This document shows positions 10,031 through 20,520 of a stretch of 20,521 nt of DNA, in pieces. The notes under the pieces were generated by a model, which was not told where the DNA came from, made no database searches, and saw nothing but the letters and a program-made list of their open reading frames with translations. The stretch's first letter is position 1. Each line of letters opens with the position of its first letter. The translations under genes and the position numbers were made by a program. This DNA is from a virus: IMG/VR virus record IMGVR_UViG_3300017773_000199, positions 1 to 20,521 of that record. The stretch is one strand, 5' to 3'.

Positions 10031-11854
10031 TTATACTGACTCTACTATTACTGCTGATGAGAATGATGGATCTTCATCAAATGTAAGTATATCTTCTCTT
10101 TGAGGGGATATAGCACTTTGATTAGCAGGGATAGCTTTTATCTTAATAAAGTTAACACCTCCTATAACACTGGATGGTTTAAACCCAACTAAGAATAATT
10201 CTCCACTAGCAGGGTCATATGAGCCTACGTTATCTACTATAACAGATGAACCATCTAAAGTAACAATTTGTAATTTAGTGCTTTTTAGTTTATTTCTTAT
10301 TTTACCAGCTCTATTATCAATATTAAAAGGAGAACTATCTATAATATAATTCTCATCATCTGCTGCTTGTATAGAGACAGGAAACCTTAATGTAAAATCA
10401 TTCTGAGCATCTAGCCTAGGAATAATTCTTTGCTGCATTTTTACTTCCATACGAGATGATAGTACAGCTGGAGACACATCATCTACAAGAGTTAAGATGT
10501 TTGAACGTCTAAAGGCTTGACTGAACTTACCTGTGTTTGAACTAAAGTATTCTCTAACCACAGTATTAACAGAATCTGTAATACTATTAAGAGATAGAGT
10601 TGTAAGCTTTGGATTAAACTGGAAGAAGGTATTAGCTTCAATAAATGTTGTTATAGGGTCTAAGAATCTTAATTTAAACGAAACAATAGCTAACTGGTTT
10701 ACTAAGTCTTGTATACTATTCTTTGTTGTTGTTTTAGTAGCTGGTAGCACATCATCTTCAAATACAATAGACATGTATACAGCTCCAAACTCAGGCTTGA
10801 GAGCATTCTCTCCTCCAAAAGATTTAATATCTTTAATAAGAGTAGAGAAGTTTCTAAGAACTAATGATGAATAGTCATCAGCTGTAACCATTCTATTCTG
10901 AGTAGCATATTGGAATGGAGCGTTTGTTCTAATAGACTGCTCTGATTCTTTTACATCACCACCAAGAGAGTTAGTAACTGTCTGTGCTACAATCTCATAT
11001 CCAGTACCACCTACGTTTACTTGAGTTATAGGATTAAATATAGTACCGTCATTAGCAACTGGACCTGATGCTGAAAGATAATCTACTTCTATTTTATAAC
11101 CTGCCTTTGGAGTAACACCGAATGTAACTCCGTCTCCAAATGATAGTTCAAAGAACTCATTAGGAGACTCTTTTAAGATATAAAGTGCTGTAGCAGAATT
11201 AATAAGAGTAGCTTGTTTAATATTCTGATATGTAGTAAACGCTATAGATGTAGGTGATTCATATACTCTAATCACAGCTGTGTCTATGTCCATATTTTTA
11301 TCTGGTATAATATATAATGCATCTTGAGACTCAGCATCAGCAATAAATGTTTTTGTTTTCTGAGTACCTTCAAATATGTCTATATTTACTGATCCTGTAG
11401 CAGTTTTAAATTGATAGATTCCAGATCCATCATCAGTTGCTGTAACAGTATCTCTTGTTTGAAAAGAATAAGATACATCATCTATTGAGCTTTCAAATAC
11501 CACTCCAGGCGCTAATGAAACTGTAGTTGGTCTTTGTACTAATGATGATAGGTTTACAGAAAAGTTAACTGTAGCCCTTGCTGCTGTTCTAGACTTTGGA
11601 ACATAACCAATACCCTCAGCTAACGACACGAGAGAGCTTCTCAGCTGCGCAGTCCCAAGGAATGACTCGTTCAAAGCGAAGTTAGCGATAAGTCCATTAT
11701 AGTGAGTGTTATAAGCTAGTACATCTAGTATATTAGATAGACCAGACGCTTCGAAGTTATAGTCAGCAAACTCATCTTGTTGAGCTAAGAATGTCTTCAA
11801 GTTATTTTTAATCGACGTAAAGTCTAGGTTTGTTGACTTAATTGTAGTTGCCAT
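10031..11854 (-). CDS. 6: Baseplate wedge protein gp6
   Basis: A 607-residue homologue of T4 gp6 (about 660 residues), which forms the inner wedge ring of the baseplate and belongs to the Mu gp47/P2 gpJ group. The N-terminus is characteristic: LDFTSIKNNLKTFLAQQDEF, EASGLSNILDVLAYNTHYNG, and NESFLGTAQLRSSLVSLAEG followed by IGYVPKSRTAA. The middle is beta-rich, with ELSFGDGVTFGVTPKAGYKI near residue 230-250. A further conserved-looking stretch is APFQYATQNRMVTADDYSSL near 310-330. It overlaps the gp25 stop by one base (TAATG), which suggests coupled translation and fits the physical gp25-gp6 contact known in T4. No oddities were seen apart from the modestly shorter length. Confidence 0.9.
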   Translation of the reverse strand: MATTIKSTNLDFTSIKNNLKTFLAQQDEFADYNFEASGLSNILDVLAYNTHYNGLIANFALNESFLGTAQLRSSLVSLAEGIGYVPKSRTAARATVNFSVNLSSLVQRPTTVSLAPGVVFESSIDDVSYSFQTRDTVTATDDGSGIYQFKTATGSVNIDIFEGTQKTKTFIADAESQDALYIIPDKNMDIDTAVIRVYESPTSIAFTTYQNIKQATLINSATALYILKESPNEFFELSFGDGVTFGVTPKAGYKIEVDYLSASGPVANDGTIFNPITQVNVGGTGYEIVAQTVTNSLGGDVKESEQSIRTNAPFQYATQNRMVTADDYSSLVLRNFSTLIKDIKSFGGENALKPEFGAVYMSIVFEDDVLPATKTTTKNSIQDLVNQLAIVSFKLRFLDPITTFIEANTFFQFNPKLTTLSLNSITDSVNTVVREYFSSNTGKFSQAFRRSNILTLVDDVSPAVLSSRMEVKMQQRIIPRLDAQNDFTLRFPVSIQAADDENYIIDSSPFNIDNRAGKIRNKLKSTKLQIVTLDGSSVIVDNVGSYDPASGELFLVGFKPSSVIGGVNFIKIKAIPANQSAISPQREDILTFDEDPSFSSAVIVESV

Positions 11855-12300
11855 TATCTTAGCCTCGATAGGTTCGTAGTGAATGTTACTGTTTCTTGTG
11901 TACTAATAACCTTAAATTGTACGGTTACACTTATATCATGTTGATCTGGAAGAGCAATAACAGATATGTTAAGTATTTCAGCTCTAGGTTCATATTTAAT
12001 TATAGCGTTTCTAATATTTTCTTCTACTTCATCTTCTATATCATCATCTGCTAGTTCAAATAATAAAGCTCTTAGGTTAGCACCATAGAAAGGTTGAAAA
12101 GGTTTCTCAAAGTAATCTGTAAGAAGTAAATTCTTTATTGATTGCTTAACAGCAGCTGCATCTCTCTTCTTGTAGATATCACCTGCTGGTTTTTTTGCAA
12201 AGGTTAAATCAATATCCAAATAGTCTACGGTACGCGAGGATACTAGCGTACTTTTCTGAAGATTACCATCTTCTGTAGATAAAACTCTTCTTATAGCCAT
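11854..12300 (-). CDS. 25: Baseplate wedge protein gp25
   Basis: A 148-residue homologue of T4 gp25 (132 residues), related to TssE of type VI secretion, which nucleates sheath assembly at the wedge core. Two family marks are visible. One is PFYGANLRALLFEL near residues 68-81. The other is the EPR triad at residues 104-106 (YEPRAEIL), the conserved core motif of the family, which contacts the gp6 bundle. The ATG is preceded by GGAAGAC and by a late promoter octamer in the 31-nt gap upstream. The downstream overlap with gp6 is one base. There is nothing unusual in length or composition. Confidence 0.92.
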   Translation of the reverse strand: MAIRRVLSTEDGNLQKSTLVSSRTVDYLDIDLTFAKKPAGDIYKKRDAAAVKQSIKNLLLTDYFEKPFQPFYGANLRALLFELADDDIEDEVEENIRNAIIKYEPRAEILNISVIALPDQHDISVTVQFKVISTQETVTFTTNLSRLR

Positions 12301-12331: not shown

Positions 12332-13426
12332 TTAAATTAGTGTGTTTGAAACTGATATGTAAGACTCTTTACTAAGGCTAACTCCATCCACACCTATACT
12401 ATATACAGGAGAGTTTAAATCTAAGAGACGTACACCATTTAGATCTCCCAACGCTCTTATTATAGACTGTCTTACTAGTGTTTGTCTTCGTCTAGATGTC
12501 TTATCTGTTATTTTAAATAACAGGAAGGTAATATCATGTTCTAATTGATATGATGTGTTTACTATTTTAAATATCCTATCAGCAATCTGGGTAGGAGTAT
12601 CATTTGAGCTTATAGCATCATTAACTCCTGCAGATATTACTACAACTTCACCTTCTTTAATAAGTTGAATATTCTTTATTATAGCTTGATCTCTAGAAGT
12701 TCTTGCATCCCTAGCAAATGTTTGCCACGGATCTCCTCCATACACTTTTAAGTTTCTAGCATGAACATCACCAATAGTAAAGTACCCTGTAACCTCATCA
12801 GGTAAGTTTGCTGGGAATTCAATAGCTGTTGTAGGTGATTCAGTTATTTCTATTAGCTGACTTACAGCTTGTACTTTATTATTAAATCTAGTTTCAACTA
12901 ATCCTTTGAATCTGACATTATAATCTGAACTTATTTCAGGCATCTCAATAACAATTTGTACATTTAGTTCACCTTCATTGTAAGTATCATAATCTAATAT
13001 TAGTTTATCGTATGTACGATGATATGTTTGTAAAAATCTAGCCAGTTCAAATGTCTTTTCATTGTCAATAGAATTATTACGTCTTAACTCATACACAACA
13101 GATCGACCTGATGTTGCTAAGAAGTTTGTGTTCTCTTCTGTCTCAGTAATCTGCTCTTCTGGATCAGCTTTATATAACCCTTCTATAACAACAAGTTTAT
13201 GTCTACTGAATCGTTTACTATCTTCTCCAATAGCTTTTAGTATTTGAGCTTGAGGTAGAAGGTTACGAGCGATTTGTATTCTATCTTTTACTTCTGGTAT
13301 ATGATCTAGAGTAATACCTTTAAGAAAGTTACCCATTGTAATACCGCTATTAAGTAAAGTATTAGCATTTACTTTATTAAGCCCTTCAGGTAAGTATCTA
13401 AGATCTGGTAAATATTTAAGAGCCAT
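12332..13426 (-). CDS. Baseplate-associated protein with degenerate SGNH-like C-terminus
   Basis: A 364-residue protein between the spike genes and gp25. The C-terminal ~155 residues follow the SGNH/GDSL hydrolase layout: block I at 219-222 reads GDVH (usual GDS), block III at 267-270 reads GVND (intact GxND), and the last block at 347-350 reads DGVS (usual DxxH). The nucleophile Ser and catalytic His are therefore replaced, while the oxyanion Asn269 remains. The N-terminal part is less clear. KLVVIEGLY near residue 76, TSGRSVVYEL (105-114), ELARFLQTYHRTYDKLIL and ELNVQIVIE (about 153-161) resemble the order of strands in M15 (VanY-like) peptidases, but the metal ligands are absent (Tyr112 and Val156/Gln157 where Asp and His are expected). 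It overlaps the needle gene by one base. I infer a structural or glycan-binding role. The SGNH likeness is moderate; the M15 likeness is tentative. Confidence 0.6.
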   Translation of the reverse strand: MALKYLPDLRYLPEGLNKVNANTLLNSGITMGNFLKGITLDHIPEVKDRIQIARNLLPQAQILKAIGEDSKRFSRHKLVVIEGLYKADPEEQITETEENTNFLATSGRSVVYELRRNNSIDNEKTFELARFLQTYHRTYDKLILDYDTYNEGELNVQIVIEMPEISSDYNVRFKGLVETRFNNKVQAVSQLIEITESPTTAIEFPANLPDEVTGYFTIGDVHARNLKVYGGDPWQTFARDARTSRDQAIIKNIQLIKEGEVVVISAGVNDAISSNDTPTQIADRIFKIVNTSYQLEHDITFLLFKITDKTSRRRQTLVRQSIIRALGDLNGVRLLDLNSPVYSIGVDGVSLSKESYISVSNTLI

Positions 13427-14874
13427 TATCTAATAATCCTTTTAGAAGTGAGATGAGGAGATGGATTACCTATAACAGAACTACCTTGCACTACAAGCGT
13501 TTCTGTATCCTGTATAGTTTCTACATTAGGAGGAGATGTATTAGCATAGTCTGGAGATAGTTTACCTTCAGATAACATTAAGGTTGTAAACTCTACGTTG
13601 TCTCTATGTGCTGGATCTCTCATCTTACGTCTTACTTGAGCAACATCTATATTCTTATTTGTTACACCTGATGTCTTTTTAGATAAGTCAACATTGTTCT
13701 TTTGTATATCTTCTGGATCAACCTTAACAACTCTTACACCTTTATCACTTTTTGTTCTATAATCAGTTAAGAGAGTAGCTGTAGGTTTAGCTGTTGCAGT
13801 TGTGTTATTAGCTAAATCATCTGCTGAGTTGCTTGTATATGAATACGCAGATCCGGATGTGTTTCCACCAGGATCCGTATCAGGATAATTCTGAGCTGCT
13901 GTAATATTAGATTGCTTTGCAGTACCATTTAGATCACCATGGAATGTAGTGTAGTGAGCTGATGTTCCTTCCACTCTAGTAATATTACCCTTTGGAGTAT
14001 CCATTGAAACATCAGCGTATACTGTACCACCAGCTCTTAGATTCATTGTATACATTTGCATATTCTCACCACCTATTGTACCTGTATCACCAAATACAGA
14101 TAAGTTATCAGCAGCTATGTTAGCTTCAGGCGAAGTAAGTACAACCTCAGCTTCTGATGTCATAGTTAGTACTCCAGATATAGCTTCTGTATGAGGACCT
14201 TCTACAATATATCTACTATCACCTTTTACAACTGTAGATAGTCCTTCAAGGTACTGATGAGCTCCTCCTCCAGTAACTAAATTAGTCTGATTACCATCAA
14301 CTGTTTTTACATCATCTCCTGTAACAGTTCTTGTATAAGATCCATTAACTACTTCTGTCTTCTTAGTAGAGTTAACGTTATATTCACCACCTACATTAAC
14401 ATTGAAATCACCTGTTACATCGATAGTAAGATTACCTTCAAACTTTAGATTGCCATTCTTTACTTCTAAGAAATAGTCTTCGTTAGCTTTATCAATACGT
14501 CTCTTAGATGATATAATAATAGACCCATCAGGTCCAATGTTTATACCATCACCATTCTTATGACGAATCATTATTCTTTCTGAACCAGGAGTATCGTTAT
14601 ATTCTACTGTATGACCAGCTGGTGTTGTATGAGCATAGCAAGTAGAATTACTTATTCCATTACCTTGAGCAGTATCAGCAGGAACATCTGCACCATACGT
14701 ATTAATTAATAGTCCACCTTTAGCTGTAACTGGCTTTCCTTCTCCTCCAGCGTTTGGATAAGATCCTGTATTATCAGAGAAAGGATGCTGAACAAATCCT
14801 TGAGATTTAACCGAACCTTCACCTTGTACTACCTGTCTGTTTACTACAGACTCTACATTATTTGTCTTACCCAT
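13426..14874 (-). CDS. Spike needle protein, gp5 C-terminal/VgrG-like beta-helix
   Basis: A 482-residue protein that looks like the needle part of T4 gp5. Residues about 85-120 read AGHTVEYNDTPGSERIMIRH, then GINIGPDGSIII. This is the segment that in gp5, VgrG and gpV-type spikes leads from the OB-fold into the beta-helix. Residues about 140-290 consist of short alternating strands of the V-x-G-x type (NLTIDVTGDFNVNVGGEYNV, GSYTRTVTGDDVKTVDGNQT), typical of the triple-stranded beta-helix. The C-terminal ~140 residues are Ser/Thr/Asn-rich and then charged (RRKMRDPAHRDNVEF). No lysozyme is present; that domain is two genes upstream. It should trimerise beneath the hub and pierce the outer membrane. 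No terminal PAAR-type tip motif was seen. It overlaps both neighbours by one base (TAATG). Confidence 0.75.
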   Translation of the reverse strand: MGKTNNVESVVNRQVVQGEGSVKSQGFVQHPFSDNTGSYPNAGGEGKPVTAKGGLLINTYGADVPADTAQGNGISNSTCYAHTTPAGHTVEYNDTPGSERIMIRHKNGDGINIGPDGSIIISSKRRIDKANEDYFLEVKNGNLKFEGNLTIDVTGDFNVNVGGEYNVNSTKKTEVVNGSYTRTVTGDDVKTVDGNQTNLVTGGGAHQYLEGLSTVVKGDSRYIVEGPHTEAISGVLTMTSEAEVVLTSPEANIAADNLSVFGDTGTIGGENMQMYTMNLRAGGTVYADVSMDTPKGNITRVEGTSAHYTTFHGDLNGTAKQSNITAAQNYPDTDPGGNTSGSAYSYTSNSADDLANNTTATAKPTATLLTDYRTKSDKGVRVVKVDPEDIQKNNVDLSKKTSGVTNKNIDVAQVRRKMRDPAHRDNVEFTTLMLSEGKLSPDYANTSPPNVETIQDTETLVVQGSSVIGNPSPHLTSKRIIR

Positions 14875-16253
14875 TATACATTTCCTTGTGCAGCGCTAAT
14901 TAATTGAGCTGTTGAAAAAGATCTACTCGTACCACCATTGTTAGTTTTCTTAAACGCTTCTAAGTAACTTGCAATTGAAAGCCCAACCGGTACTTTAGAT
15001 TCATCTAAATCTTCTTCAGCATCAAATGCTTGACCACCAGGCCATACTTGATAGAAAGCTTCAAAGATCTTTCTTACTGTATCCCCTTGCTGTATTGTAG
15101 CATCACCGTTTTGATAGTGAGGTAATACTATCCCTATAGAATACTTATCATGAGTACTAGAGAACGTACCATCTATAGCTATAGGTCTACCTCTCTGTAA
15201 ATTACCATTTGATTGAACTACATAGTGAAAAGGTATACCGTCATTACCATCAGCAATGTATGATGCGTGTATATCTTTAGCTGTTAATATCTGATCAGGA
15301 GTCATCTCATGACCGTAAAATACTAATTCTGTTATCTCTCTACTACATTTTATAAATTCAATTATTAGTTGTTCTTGTGTAGCAACAATATCAAAGAAAT
15401 CGTCTCTCGTATTAGCGCCATTCCATACAGTGTTCTTACTTGTTACATCATACACTCCTGTACTAGATGTAAACTCTGTATCAGTTTTTAATTGCTGATT
15501 AATATCAGTAGGTACAGTAGGTAAAAAAGACTCTATATCAGCTATAGACTTTTTAGTTAATTTTTCAACTAAGAGTATAGCTTTACGAGCTTCCTTAGCT
15601 TGTAATAATAAAAGTACGTCTACTGTACTTTCTTTAGGTACTCCAAAGTTTTCTATAACAGATAGAGGTGTTATATCTGATTGTAAAAGTATATCCTGTA
15701 TAGGATTACCTGTTTTAGTTTTAGCTAGGTTAGTAAAAGATGATACAAAGGAATTTAACGAGGTAGAAAACTCATTAGAAAACTCTGTAAAGTCTTTATT
15801 AGATATATCTTTTACTTGATTAGAATACTTCTTTGGAGTTATATTGCTTATTATTGTTTCAGTCTGTGAAGCAGTAGGAGTAGCTATAGCTCCTATAGAT
15901 GCTTTAACACCTTCTGGAGTAGGACATGTAATGACAATATCTAAAAAGCCATTAGATACTGTTGCACCAGTTATCTTATCCAGATCGGTTTTACTATCAC
16001 TAACGTTTTTTATTATCTGATCTTGTATACCTGGTATGTTTTGAGATAATATAGCTATACTAGAAGATGTACTGTTAGATGTATTAAGAGCTTGAATACC
16101 GCTTAATGTTTCGTTTAATAAGCCTCCCAAACTTGTTGAGTTTAAAGCTTGTACAGCAGAAGCAACGGTTGATGTATCATTAACAAGATCAGAAAACCCT
16201 GCACCCACCTTTGCACTTCTTAAGATACTATTAATTTCAGGTATAGTAGCCAT
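14874..16253 (-). CDS. Structural protein with degenerate amidase/PGRP-like C-terminus
   Basis: A 459-residue protein in the spike section. Residues 1-280 are Ser/Thr/Asn-rich and mostly helical, with no recognised fold. Residues about 300-415 follow the amidase_2/PGRP layout of T7 lysozyme: ELVFYGHEMTP (His315), AKDIHASYIADGNDGIPFHY (His343), GNLQRGRP, THDKYSIGIVL (His368), then QVWPGGQAFDAEED. In active members the first strand ends in the zinc-binding 'VHxx', and the last segment supplies a His plus a Cys or His. Here the first site is Tyr (with His two residues later), and no His/Cys pair follows the GGQ segment. The usual catalytic Tyr before HY/HF is Phe. I therefore infer a binding or scaffold domain rather than an active amidase. 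One-base overlaps (TAATG) with both neighbours place it firmly in the hub/spike operon. Confidence 0.65.
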   Translation of the reverse strand: MATIPEINSILRSAKVGAGFSDLVNDTSTVASAVQALNSTSLGGLLNETLSGIQALNTSNSTSSSIAILSQNIPGIQDQIIKNVSDSKTDLDKITGATVSNGFLDIVITCPTPEGVKASIGAIATPTASQTETIISNITPKKYSNQVKDISNKDFTEFSNEFSTSLNSFVSSFTNLAKTKTGNPIQDILLQSDITPLSVIENFGVPKESTVDVLLLLQAKEARKAILLVEKLTKKSIADIESFLPTVPTDINQQLKTDTEFTSSTGVYDVTSKNTVWNGANTRDDFFDIVATQEQLIIEFIKCSREITELVFYGHEMTPDQILTAKDIHASYIADGNDGIPFHYVVQSNGNLQRGRPIAIDGTFSSTHDKYSIGIVLPHYQNGDATIQQGDTVRKIFEAFYQVWPGGQAFDAEEDLDESKVPVGLSIASYLEAFKKTNNGGTSRSFSTAQLISAAQGNV

Positions 16254-17362
16254 TATGAATCTCCAAATTTCTTAGACACTTCTTTAGCAGATATTAATCT
16301 CTGTTCAAATGCAGCAGAGTATTTTAGTAATGCACTACTCTGTCTAGATGATCTACGTACAGCACCTCTTATACCTCCTAATCTAGAGTGAAGGTTATAA
16401 TTACTTATGAAAGAAGACTCTTTATGATAATTATAAGCTGTAGAAGGTGTCTCATATAATGCCATAACAACCTCTGTATATTCTACAATTGTACTAGAGT
16501 TTACTAATCTAGCATAAGTTCTTTTAGATTGTTTATTTTCTAGTTCATATACAACAAATGCTAACTGTACTGAGAAGTTTAAATAATTAGCTCCTGGTAT
16601 AGTATTAGCAAATGTTTTTAACTCTGGTTGTCTTGAGTTCCACTGAGCTATACCTACAGCAGGCTCTACAGGGGGTCTAGCTTTTGGATCTAATGTATGA
16701 CCTGATTCATGAATAAAGTTACCTACAAATGCAGCAGCACAAGAACCTGGATCTCCAATATTACCTCTTGTTTCGAAGTAACCTTTTAAATAGTTAAAAG
16801 CTTGTTCCTGTCGAGTAGATCCAATAAGTTTAAGATTCAATGTACCAGACCCTGATGTACTATAATCAAGCGCATCAGCTTGTTGTGCATCTATCTTTGT
16901 TCCTATCTGAGGAGCAGGTTGCCCCACTTCTAGAAGTCTTTCTATTTCAAGCTGAGTAATAAGATCGCCAATTTTAACATTAGTTTCTGTTTGCGAGTTT
17001 CTAGGAACAGCATATGCATCCTGAGGTTCTTCATTGATCACTCTTAAACCAGAATCATGAGGTATAGATCCTAACACAAGAGGACTCTGAGAGTGTTTAC
17101 CGTCTAAGAAGATACCATAGACTTGAGCTCCTACTTGTATACCATCAGGCATAGTAGATCCAGATACACCACCTTGAGTAACAGGTACAACAACAGACGC
17201 CCAGGGCAGATCGCTTATCTTTACTTTAGTTGTATCTTCGTTATGAATACCAAATATACGTACTCTAACTCTACCTAGGTTTCTAACATCACCTATCTGA
17301 GAAACTACTCCAATAAACCATCTGGAGTCATCACCATAAAACTCTGTGTTTATTGTTCTCAT
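16253..17362 (-). CDS. 5: Hub/spike OB-fold protein with tail lysozyme, gp5-like
   Basis: A 369-residue protein corresponding to the first two parts of T4 gp5. Residues about 10-105 form the gp5/gpV OB-fold: WFIGVVSQIGDVRNLGRVRV, RIFGIHNEDT, LPWASVVVPV, and VGAQVYGIFLDGKHSQSPLV. After a linker (about 110-170) comes a lysozyme domain unlike the T4L type but like the phage tail lysozyme family (PF18013): AFVGNFIHESG with predicted catalytic Glu219, GIAQWN at 237-242, a QLAFVVYEL helix, then YETPSTAY. The key residues I expect are present, so it is probably active on peptidoglycan during infection. The T4 gp5 C-terminal beta-helix is missing and is supplied by the protein at 13426-14874. The start overlaps the gp27-like stop by four bases (ATGA), consistent with the tight gp27-gp5 complex. 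Confidence 0.82.
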   Translation of the reverse strand: MRTINTEFYGDDSRWFIGVVSQIGDVRNLGRVRVRIFGIHNEDTTKVKISDLPWASVVVPVTQGGVSGSTMPDGIQVGAQVYGIFLDGKHSQSPLVLGSIPHDSGLRVINEEPQDAYAVPRNSQTETNVKIGDLITQLEIERLLEVGQPAPQIGTKIDAQQADALDYSTSGSGTLNLKLIGSTRQEQAFNYLKGYFETRGNIGDPGSCAAAFVGNFIHESGHTLDPKARPPVEPAVGIAQWNSRQPELKTFANTIPGANYLNFSVQLAFVVYELENKQSKRTYARLVNSSTIVEYTEVVMALYETPSTAYNYHKESSFISNYNLHSRLGGIRGAVRRSSRQSSALLKYSAAFEQRLISAKEVSKKFGDS

Positions 17363-18750
17363 ACTGCACCTGTCTTATCAGTTAGCTTAACTATATCCAT
17401 CTTTAGATTATATTGACCTTCAATAAACATATGTCTAGTCCTGTAAACTAAAAATTTACCTGATTTATTCTTATCAACATCACCTGCTCTTATTGATCCA
17501 TCAGCTTGAGATGTAGATGCAACATTTAGAAGAATGTTTGACCCTATTCCTATATCTAGGTCACCTGATATGTAAGGTTGACCTGGAACAGTAATTTCAT
17601 AAACATTGTTTAAAAGAATAGATCTTAACGCTGCTGATTTAATTTTTAACTTATATAATGACTCTTGCTTATGCTCATCAGCATAACCAGCTATAGATGT
17701 TACTCCATCTGCTTCATAGAACTTTCTAGATGTAACAACCTCACTAAACACTTTAGAGTTTAGGTCTCCAATATTAACCGCCTCACCGCTTATTCCAGTA
17801 AATTTTAATGCATCATCATATCCTAGAGATGATAAAACATCTGAATTAGCTTCTGTGTGATCATACAATCTTTGTAATGTAAATTTACTATCGTGATGAG
17901 GTCTATCTGATTTACTTCCAGAAGTTAAGTCCATAGTTTTAAACTCAGACCCTACAGCGCCTGATTGAGCTATTCTTAATGTACTTTCTATTTGAGAAGC
18001 CTCATAAGACTTGACATGAAACATTTCAGTACGTCTAATATTTGGACCAGACTCAGTAGGTACTTGGTTATGAGATGTTTGAGAGTAAGAGTATGGATAG
18101 TCTTTATTCCATGGCGATTTTACCATCATAGTGTCTAGATCTTCTAGTCTTATAAGATCATCTCTTAATGCTGCATATAAAAAATAAGGTGCACCTAAAG
18201 ATGTTGCCATCCTATCTCTAAGCCATTCTGTAGCCTGTAAAGGGTTCCAGTAAGGTATGTTTACTTTCATACGTTGTTGTTTTGGCTCTACATTTTCAAA
18301 CCTAAGTGTTTTGTTAAGATGAGAGTTTAGTATATCCATAACAATAATTTCTGGTATTCCAGTATAGGATTCGCTAATCTTTTTTATAGAACTTAAATAA
18401 GCGTGCTCTTCCATGAGAGTAAGAGTGTGTAGATCTGTTCGCTCATTAACAGATACATTATTAGCAACACCTGTTATCATAAAAGTTTTTACAATTGGTG
18501 ATGAGTCTTCATGAGCAAGTAATGTTATAGTTAATCGCTCACTTCCTTTAATACCTATAACATCTTTAAACCTAACATCATCTACTAACGCGCATGTACC
18601 TGTGAGATATGGTAACTCTACACTTTCAAATATATTAAGCTCAGCTATTGACCTAGAAATATCCATTGGCGGTCCAAATGCTATATCATACCTATCTGCA
18701 GTAAATATAACACTTTCAATTATGTACTGAGTTTGAGAATTGTTAGTCAT
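17359..18750 (-). CDS. 27: Baseplate hub protein, gp27-like
   Basis: A 463-residue protein. In T4, gp27 (391 residues) forms a trimeric ring between the tail tube and the gp5 spike. Supporting features are the position directly upstream of the gp5-like gene, with a 4-nt ATGA overlap, and an N-terminal barrel-like part: IAELNIFESVELPYLTGTCA followed by LVDDVRFKDVIGIKGSERLT. Further signs are TLTLMEEHAYLSSIKKISES and the later NIPYWNPLQATEWLRDRMAT near residue 170-190, a segment typical of gp27/gpD-type hub proteins. The C-terminal part ends in beta segments: GDLDIGIGSNILLN and GKFLVYRTRHMFIEGQYNLK. There are no enzyme motifs. Assignment rests on context plus overall pattern; direct residue identity to T4 gp27 is low. 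Confidence 0.68.
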   Translation of the reverse strand: MTNNSQTQYIIESVIFTADRYDIAFGPPMDISRSIAELNIFESVELPYLTGTCALVDDVRFKDVIGIKGSERLTITLLAHEDSSPIVKTFMITGVANNVSVNERTDLHTLTLMEEHAYLSSIKKISESYTGIPEIIVMDILNSHLNKTLRFENVEPKQQRMKVNIPYWNPLQATEWLRDRMATSLGAPYFLYAALRDDLIRLEDLDTMMVKSPWNKDYPYSYSQTSHNQVPTESGPNIRRTEMFHVKSYEASQIESTLRIAQSGAVGSEFKTMDLTSGSKSDRPHHDSKFTLQRLYDHTEANSDVLSSLGYDDALKFTGISGEAVNIGDLNSKVFSEVVTSRKFYEADGVTSIAGYADEHKQESLYKLKIKSAALRSILLNNVYEITVPGQPYISGDLDIGIGSNILLNVASTSQADGSIRAGDVDKNKSGKFLVYRTRHMFIEGQYNLKMDIVKLTDKTGAV

Positions 18751-18752
18751 GC

Positions 18753-19502
18753 TTATGCTTTCAATAGTCTAAAATATTCACTCACAACACTTGTAACTCT
18801 AGATGGTTTTATTATAATTATATCTTTTAACTTATCATTAAATTCAATATTATCTTCCATAATAGTAGTAGGTATTAACCCTGACGTTGTTTGATTGTAT
18901 GGGTCTATATCTACTATATCTCCAGCTGAATTTTTATAGTATAATGTAGCGTTATATTGTACAGACTCGCTAATAAGGTTAGCAGTGTTTATTGCTTGTT
19001 CTTCTGCTGTAGTACCTGCTACAATCTGTTCCGTCTGTCCAAAGTTGTTATTTAATCCTGCTTCGTTTTCATCAGAAGCAATAACTATCTGACCGAGATC
19101 TAAATTACGCTCTATTACTCTACCTGTTGTACCTGATGTTTTACCTAAAACAAAATCACCTGGTAAAAAATTAGCTGCTATAGCATCTTCTGTTGTAACA
19201 GTTCTATGAGGATATCTTTTTTTAACTAACTCTCTCATTTCTCTTTCTGGTAGAGGCCAGCCTGATTCTCTTAAACCATCATTCATAAAAAAGAATGTCC
19301 AATGATAGTCAGGAGTACCATAGAGTTTCTGAGATACCACATCAGGCCTATCTCCATCCAGTATAGTATATTTCTCATAAAAGGCAACTTCACTTTTTAA
19401 TTGATCAATCATATCAATGTAAGAAGTTATATTAGGAAACACAGTATTAGCTTCATTATCACCGAAGTTATATTCTACGAATGGAAATCTTTGAAAGTAC
19501 AT
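18753..19502 (-). CDS. 53: Baseplate wedge protein gp53
   Basis: A 249-residue homologue of T4 gp53 (196 residues), which locks wedges together around the hub. The N-terminal ~110 residues carry the family pattern: MYFQRFPFVEYNFGD, NITSYIDMIDQLKSEVAFYE KYTI split across the first helix, DGDRPDVVSQKLYGTPDYHW, and FFFMNDGLRESGWPLP. This is the LysM-like core. Residues about 120-170 are an extra beta segment (FLPGDFVLGKTSGTTGRVIE) that probably accounts for the greater length. The C-terminus (IIIKPSRVTSVVSEYFRLLK) resembles other gp53 ends. The ATG is preceded by AAGGAA and lies one base from the gp48 stop. Confidence 0.88.
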   Translation of the reverse strand: MYFQRFPFVEYNFGDNEANTVFPNITSYIDMIDQLKSEVAFYEKYTILDGDRPDVVSQKLYGTPDYHWTFFFMNDGLRESGWPLPEREMRELVKKRYPHRTVTTEDAIAANFLPGDFVLGKTSGTTGRVIERNLDLGQIVIASDENEAGLNNNFGQTEQIVAGTTAEEQAINTANLISESVQYNATLYYKNSAGDIVDIDPYNQTTSGLIPTTIMEDNIEFNDKLKDIIIIKPSRVTSVVSEYFRLLKA

Positions 19503-19503
19503 A

Positions 19504-20520
19504 TTAATATTCCTTATTCTGTACTAAGTCTTTATGCAGTGTACCTGATTCAATAAAGGACATAGTAATATCTACTTCAGTAAAATCTCCACCTTCTAAG
19601 AATCCCATACCTGAAGCATTGTAAGTAGCTGAGAAACTTCTAATATAAGAAGGAAGTATTCTAGTAGCTAGACGTTCCTTTTTATTATCATACTTTAACT
19701 CTATTTGAAATACGTTAGGGAACTTGTAACCAGCGTTTATACCTGCCATTTCGATAACTTCAGGGTAAAGATTAGATCTAAAAAATTTAATAATATCTTT
19801 TATCGCTTGAGTTTCCTTTTTAGATGTAGGTATTAATTTAAATGTGAACGTAAATTCTCTTAGAGGCACACTTTTAAATAACGCTCTTGTGTTTGGATTA
19901 ATAGCTACTCTTGTAGCAGAACTAACAGCTCCTCTTGCTGCATCACTAGGTATAAATTTAGCAGCTCTATTAACAGCTAACCTAGCTAGGTCTTTACTAC
20001 CTGAACTTCTATTCCCGATAGCATCAATGATTGAAGCTGCAGTATCACCTATACCAGTAACTATAGAAGGTAAAAGACTTGCTCCTTCTTGCATTGCTGA
20101 TTGAGCCCCTGCTCCTAATATTCCTAAGTCAACATTTGAATAAGCAGCTCCGTCTGTAATTTGTACTGCTTGTGGTAAGTATAGAGTAGCGCTTCCTTTA
20201 GGTCCTCCTTTAAAACTTTGACCAGTAGCATTTTGAATACCTGACGCAGCTGTTCCTGGAGGTCCATTATTAGCAGTAGTTACTCTTTGTTTAAATTCTT
20301 TTTTCTTCTTAGTACTACCGAAATGAAAACCGTTTTCATCTCCGAAGGCTTCTTTTTCATAAATTTCTTGAGATTGTTCGTTAGCCGTCTTTAAGGATAT
20401 ATCAGCTATATCAAATAAAAAGTTTACATCAAACGATTCTATCTCTCTAGCAGTAAATTTAATTTCTGCTGCATACGGAGTGTTCTTATTATCAATAGGA
20501 AACTTGTAATTATCATTCAT
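19504..20520 (-). CDS. 48: Baseplate tail tube cap protein gp48
   Basis: A 338-residue homologue of T4 gp48 (364 residues), which sits on the hub and starts tail-tube polymerisation together with gp54. Residues about 205-235 (NPNTRALFKSVPLREFTFTF, KLIPTSKKET) and the following KDIIKFFRSNLYPE helix give the tube-initiator core seen in T4-like gp48 proteins. The last ~45 residues (RSFSATYNASGMGFLEGGDF, TEVDITMSFIES) match the T4 gp48 end (PNLPSTFTLEITMRE). Residues about 80-200 are a Gly/Ala/Ser-rich middle part (GPKGSATLYLPQAVQITDGA). The ATG lies one base from the right edge of the window, so a longer N-terminus or the ribosome site cannot be checked. Gene order places it at the head of this block, before gp53. 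Confidence 0.83.
   Translation of the reverse strand: MNDNYKFPIDNKNTPYAAEIKFTAREIESFDVNFLFDIADISLKTANEQSQEIYEKEAFGDENGFHFGSTKKKKEFKQRVTTANNGPPGTAASGIQNATGQSFKGGPKGSATLYLPQAVQITDGAAYSNVDLGILGAGAQSAMQEGASLLPSIVTGIGDTAASIIDAIGNRSSGSKDLARLAVNRAAKFIPSDAARGAVSSATRVAINPNTRALFKSVPLREFTFTFKLIPTSKKETQAIKDIIKFFRSNLYPEVIEMAGINAGYKFPNVFQIELKYDNKKERLATRILPSYIRSFSATYNASGMGFLEGGDFTEVDITMSFIESGTLHKDLVQNKEY

Follow-up and report, generated by a model that had tools for sequence, protein, structure and literature searches.

Enzyme folds in the hub and spike genes

The 20,521-base virus record IMGVR_UViG_3300017773_000199 was analysed over its whole length and is called the window here. It is the baseplate operon, hub and spike included, of an uncultivated T4-like phage, a virus of bacteria: a gp5-type OB domain, a gp27-like protein, gp25, gp53 and gp6 all lie within one minus-strand operon (Table 1). 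Our subject is a set of four enzyme-shaped domains encoded by its hub and spike genes, apparently only one of which keeps its catalytic residues. The open reading frames, their strand and their co-translation-type overlaps had been described in an original prediction made from the letters of the window, and all were confirmed. Overlaps are of 1-4 nucleotides, with ATGA at the gp27/gp5 junction and TAATG at the gp5/amidase-like, amidase-like/needle and needle/SGNH gene junctions.

Scans of viral contigs located the amidase-like gene at about 120 loci, many of them on shared contigs (relatives from one scan being the best 80 of 343 matched). We retained 60 distinct amidase-domain sequences including that of the window, namely 43 from distant relatives and 17 from the window clade. 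Gene order is almost unvarying across these two groups. The window clade has needle and tip as two genes, the second of which also encodes an SGNH domain. Most distant relatives lack the SGNH domain and carry the N-terminal tip domain as a C-terminal extension of the needle.

The gp5-type protein contains a Phage_lysozyme2 domain (PF18013, E=3.5e-12, 47.1 bits vs a cut-off of 28.2), in which Glu219 and the GIAQW motif are unchanged in 7/7 aligned window-clade sequences. The Glu219 equivalent of a relative's domain aligns to position 45 of phi29 gp13, where the glutamate is the catalytic residue. The window domain is apparently a working hydrolase, the sole one of the four to look so from its residues.

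The C-terminal domain of the amidase-like protein is homologous, in fold and sequence, to enzymes of the Amidase_2/T7 lysozyme type. The protein matches the phrog_822 amidase (E=2.9e-6), its family profile matches T7 lysozyme (E=3e-19), and its AlphaFold model matches LysCS (an amidase endolysin), T7 lysozyme and PGRPs (Foldseek E 2e-5 to 5e-4, probability 1.00). The zinc ligands are absent from the window, where the two His are replaced by Y313 (15315-15317) and A412 (15018-15020) and the Asp by P422 (14988-14990); the catalytic Tyr is replaced by F342 (15228-15230).

The spike-tip protein joins two further domains. Its C-terminal part has an SGNH fold: Foldseek pairs the AlphaFold model with PatB, PAF-acetylhydrolase and GDSL esterases (E from 3.7e-6 for PatB, probability 1.00). 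By sequence, Pfam Lipase_GDSL_2 gave E=0.0034, below the cut-off, and a profile of the gene found no match among PDB sequences. The block I Ser is V221 in the window (12764-12766) and the block V His is S350 (12377-12379); in every clade member aligned the nucleophile position holds V, L, I, F or H and the His position Ser or Ala. The remaining signature is invariant in alignment A3, with the Gly-Asp of block I (D220), the Gly and Asn of block III (G267, N269) and the Asp of block V (D347) all kept.

The N-terminal tip domain found no match in Pfam or PDB sequence searches. A profile-profile comparison of its family with phage M15 domains (hhalign) gave a probability of 82% and E=1.1e-5 over 143 columns, against 0.19 for an unrelated control; comparison from a single-sequence profile yielded a probability of 5.7. 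The second-best viral match of its model is gp5 of Pseudomonas phage pf16, which bears an intact M15 domain, and the window segments GRSVVYELR and YDKLILDYD align opposite pf16 GEAVDIQF and YDQFLLEY. The SxHxxGxAxD and WxH ligands are missing from the window and from aligned relatives, with a possible leftover His in copies of the L074 and L133 types. From its fusion to the needle's C-terminal end in most distant relatives, we infer that it is the C-terminal domain of the spike and lies at its end. It would be an ancient part of the spike tip that has no metal ligands in any of the group sampled. The SGNH domain has so far been seen only in the window clade, and there it already lacks Ser and His.

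That these are phage-specific folds with an accidental resemblance to enzymes would fit the failure of the window's amidase and SGNH domains, taken alone, to reach Pfam cut-offs, and the lack of Pfam or PDB sequence support for the M15 assignment. Such an explanation is extremely improbable. It is already largely refuted for the amidase and SGNH domains, both by the Foldseek probabilities and, for the amidase, by the T7 lysozyme match and by full-length homologues carrying an intact Amidase_2 domain; for the M15-like domain, the profile-profile score with its clean control and the same position in pf16 speak against it. The original prediction had named an apparently intact tail lysozyme (Glu219, GIAQWN), an amidase/PGRP-like domain without metal ligands, an SGNH-like domain lacking Ser and His and possibly an M15-like domain lacking its ligands, and the fold searches and homologue alignment that it proposed came out in favour of enzyme folds.

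Table 1. Genes and domains of the window (approximate domain limits are marked)
Feature	Position	Strand	Match or detail
Tube cap-like	19504-20520	minus	
gp53 baseplate wedge (tree marker)	18753-19502	minus	phrog_232 E=2.3e-26
gp27-like hub protein (tree marker)	17359-18750	minus	phrog_350 E=2.3e-37
gp5-type hub protein, OB + Phage_lysozyme2, without beta-helix	16253-17362	minus	
OB domain of gp5-type protein	about 17048-17362	minus	Gp5_OB E=6.7e-8
Phage_lysozyme2 domain of gp5-type protein	about 16427-16825	minus	catalytic Glu219 at 16706-16708
Amidase-like hub protein	14874-16253	minus	
N-terminal helical region of amidase-like protein	about 15399-16253	minus	
C-terminal Amidase_2/PGRP-fold domain of amidase-like protein	about 14946-15368	minus	
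gp5 C-terminal beta-helix spike (needle), own gene	13426-14874	minus	phrog_430 E=3e-15
Spike-tip protein, M15-like + SGNH	12332-13426	minus	
M15-like domain without metal ligands	about 12815-13426	minus	tip protein residues 1-204
SGNH-fold domain without Ser and His	about 12335-12793	minus	tip protein residues 212-364
gp25 baseplate wedge (tree marker)	11854-12300	minus	PF04965 E=8.8e-13
gp6 baseplate wedge (tree marker)	10031-11854	minus	phrog_219 E=2.2e-122

Loss of catalytic residues across the phage group

Comparison of the amidase active site between both groups gave a sharp division. The first and second zinc His are present in 43/43 distant relatives and are replaced in 17/17 window-clade sequences, by Y, F or C and by A or S, respectively. 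The zinc Asp is found in 42/42 distant relatives with a resolved column and in none of the 17 window-clade sequences, which have Pro and other residues. The catalytic Tyr is likewise present in 43/43 distant relatives, and the window clade has Phe in 15 sequences, Met in one and Tyr in one. The latter, L054, keeps the Tyr although its zinc ligands are lost, a state that is as expected of a putative stepwise decay. In the distant relatives examined, Pfam detects Amidase_2 above the cut-off (E 1e-12 to 1e-15) at the same operon position, and the records searched, including one of 160 kb, have one Amidase_2 each. A scan of three window-clade records, all fragments, found no Amidase_2 over threshold, and a second amidase compensating for the dead one was rejected as a candidate on those three.

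These changes were placed on a marker tree of gp53, gp27, gp25 and gp6, from which the enzymes themselves were excluded. The 15 amidase-dead rows of the tree are monophyletic, with a support of 100 in the SH-like approximate likelihood-ratio test (SH-aLRT), and are nested among amidase-intact phages. The tree counts one change for the amidase, so that its active site would have been lost once, on the stem of the window clade, and the ancestor of the phage group would have had a working amidase. The original prediction took this domain to have been recruited as a structural or ligand-binding part; as it is intact in the 43 distant relatives, which share the gene order, and was disarmed a single time, it was not recruited as a dead domain.

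The lysozyme Glu shows another pattern, with about four independent changes on the same tree, all in amidase-intact phages. It is replaced by Thr in L136 and L137, by Lys in L129 and L139, by Ile in L080 and by Val, Ser or Ala in L144, L147, L148 and L150. Despite the loss, homology over the whole domain is plain in L136 and L129 (E 4e-19 and 1e-19). A natural Glu-to-Gln change (YQSG, with GIAGW) occurs beside an intact amidase in the gp5 of L037, L038 and L043, three contigs of different metagenomes.

Selection on the disarmed domains was assessed by the ratio of nonsynonymous to synonymous substitution rates (dN/dS). In the amidase-like protein the rough median among window-clade members is 0.14 in the dead domain and 0.24 in the N-terminal part; it is 0.18 for the live lysozyme domain, 0.20 for the SGNH domain and 0.13 for the M15-like domain. 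The dead domains are under purifying selection. The value for the amidase domain suggests that it has been retained for structure or ligand binding. If, on the other hand, the amidase and SGNH domains were dying remnants carried along by the needed rest of their proteins, redundancy with the lysozyme would allow their decay, and losses do alternate between lysozyme and amidase. We regard such relaxed decay as quite improbable, because the dead amidase domain has a lower dN/dS than the N-terminal part of its own protein and is full length in complete clade copies.

Interpretation of the tail tip

We consider it probable that the tail tip holds four enzyme-shaped domains, one of them with its catalytic residues, and that the amidase was once a working enzyme, was disarmed once in the window clade and was kept as a domain. 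This degree of confidence covers the evolutionary statement and the inactivity; between a structural and a binding role the balance is about even.

In the tail tip that we infer, the gp5-type protein would dock onto a gp27-like ring, and its lysozyme2 domain would cut glycan strands once the spike reaches the cell wall. The amidase-like partner, presumably an N-acetylmuramoyl-L-alanine amidase in the group ancestor, would now be an assembly part and/or a peptidoglycan-binding pad, roles suggested by a fold that is under purifying selection with its zinc site and Tyr gone. The tip of the spike would be the M15-like domain, to which the window clade would have added an SGNH fold without Ser and His. 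Both tip domains would contact the surface or the wall, the SGNH domain probably binding a surface or wall glycan and not de-esterifying it. The folds, residue losses, intact amidase in relatives, single loss and selection are computed results; the virion geometry, the binding roles and the lack of activity go beyond them.

Several points weigh against this reading. The AlphaFold models are of moderate quality, with predicted local distance difference test (pLDDT) scores of 77.6 and 80.7 and predicted template modelling (pTM) scores of 0.45 and 0.54; the tree was built by a quick method and has some long branches; and most pairs have dS values close to 1, hence the roughness of the dN/dS values. 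No sampled genome has lost both the lysozyme Glu and the amidase ligands, but this non-overlap is not significant when tested against chance, as the window clade makes up 22% of the ingroup tree length and all four lysozyme losses would fall outside it with P about 0.37. Finally, two His near the old amidase site, H315 and H379, are new and common to most of the clade, the second being present in nearly all members and absent from relatives. Together with the conservation of the domain, these residues could mean that it is still an enzyme which cuts peptidoglycan with a metal bound elsewhere, for instance by H315, H379, H343, H368 and acidic residues close to them. The proposal is highly improbable: the two deepest branches, L054 and L095, have Tyr in place of H315, L095 lacks H379, L071 has Val for it, the catalytic Tyr too is lost in nearly all of the clade, and no conserved third ligand takes the place of the lost His or Asp. 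A relocated zinc site at H315/H379 was rejected as poorly conserved.

The alternation of losses might also reflect a rule of one working hydrolase, under which two wall-cutting subunits would be interchangeable, either being free to die but not both, and the dead one would serve as a peptidoglycan-recognition pad positioning the live one, as in receptor PGRPs. Given the P value above, this rule is only a hypothesis, and we find it rather doubtful.

As for the disarmed amidase and its neighbours, the view in the original prediction that one apparently working hydrolase stands among disarmed folds, all of them in conserved baseplate genes, holds good. Recruitment as structural parts, the other half of that view, fits the SGNH domain only; it fails for the amidase and also for the M15-like domain, an old feature of the spike tip that is intact in other T4-type phages. 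A better description is that redundant wall-degrading modules turn over and that those which die are retained.

Known systems and related hubs

The closest known system is the T4 gp5-gp27 hub, with which the window shares a homologous OB domain (gp5 family profile vs T4 gp5, E about 1e-12), a gp27-like neighbour, a beta-helix spike and a single tail lysozyme. Unlike T4, the window has the spike in a separate gene, a lysozyme of the Phage_lysozyme2 (phi29 gp13) type, an added amidase-fold protein and an M15-like and SGNH tip. The phi29 tail tip protein gp13 (3csq) has the same lysozyme domain, with Glu45 aligned, but joins it to an M23 endopeptidase in one chain. Receptor PGRPs without zinc offer a possible parallel for the disarmed amidase, as they have the Amidase_2 fold (Foldseek), lack the zinc site and are kept for binding; they are however animal immune receptors.

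An M15-family domain at the C-terminus of a gp5-type spike is found in pf16 (pf16_208), Caulobacter phage Cr30, Methylophilales phage Melnitz and similar phages. There it keeps SxHxxGxAxD...WxH, whereas the M15-like domain of the window has none of these ligands and is followed by the SGNH domain. The pf16 protein consists of OB, beta-helix and M15 with SQHLKGEAVD...WIHVSL; M15 domains of this kind also occur in spike or PAAR-type proteins of Melnitz, Cr30 and further large phages. In PMC5587285, pf16 gp208 is called a T4-like tail lysozyme; in our searches (L158:7025-8557) Pfam gives it no lysozyme domain, and its catalytic domain is the C-terminal M15 peptidase. The hub protein gp15 of Anabaena phage A-1(L) likewise has several wall-hydrolase domains, but within a single large protein, and two of them were shown to be active (PMC10966104). 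In the amidase-lysozyme TseP, a type VI secretion system effector, the assembly role survives inactivation of the amidase by H339A (PMC11893102), which sets a precedent for assembly by an inactive amidase part. Amidase and lysozyme sit at a contractile spike there, as they would in the window, and the amidase part of TseP is structural regardless of activity; TseP is however a secreted bacterial effector whose amidase is naturally active.

In the literature searched, which misses most subscription journals, we found no account of a set like this. Each element has a known relative; what we did not find described is the apparent combination of three disarmed wall-enzyme folds around an intact one, with an intact amidase sister state and independent lysozyme losses. 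Related phages offer a natural series at the same operon position (both intact, amidase dead, lysozyme dead), and comparing these homologues makes it testable whether a tail hydrolase is needed to cut or to assemble and dock the spike. A tail gene may carry an amidase or lysozyme annotation and yet encode a pseudoenzyme, and a viral case is added to the disarmed PGRP-like folds.

Among isolate phages, a DNA search with the window found no match and hence no close relative in the phage collection, and protein searches found none to the SGNH gene and one short match to the amidase. The best gp6 match in the collection is phage C48C1 (42% identity). C48C1 (L019, 8839-9429) and Pelagibacter phage HTVC008M (L020, 848-1900) have a minimal gp5 of OB and needle; profiles of the lysozyme2 and amidase domains found no match in either.

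The equivalent of T4 gene 5 is split, across the whole group, into an OB and lysozyme gene and a beta-helix gene with another gene between them. The needle matches positions 339-580 of the 868 of phrog_430, a hub/tail-lysozyme family. The N-terminal region of an amidase-type hub protein (L083:9312-11237, residues 7-217) matches phrog_22415, of unknown function (E=7e-5), which suggests that this helical region may occur without an amidase in other phages. In L083:8020-9315 and L081:1028-2323, gp5 has a T4-type lysozyme (PF00959) inserted into its Phage_lysozyme2 domain, so that one hydrolase is nested in another.

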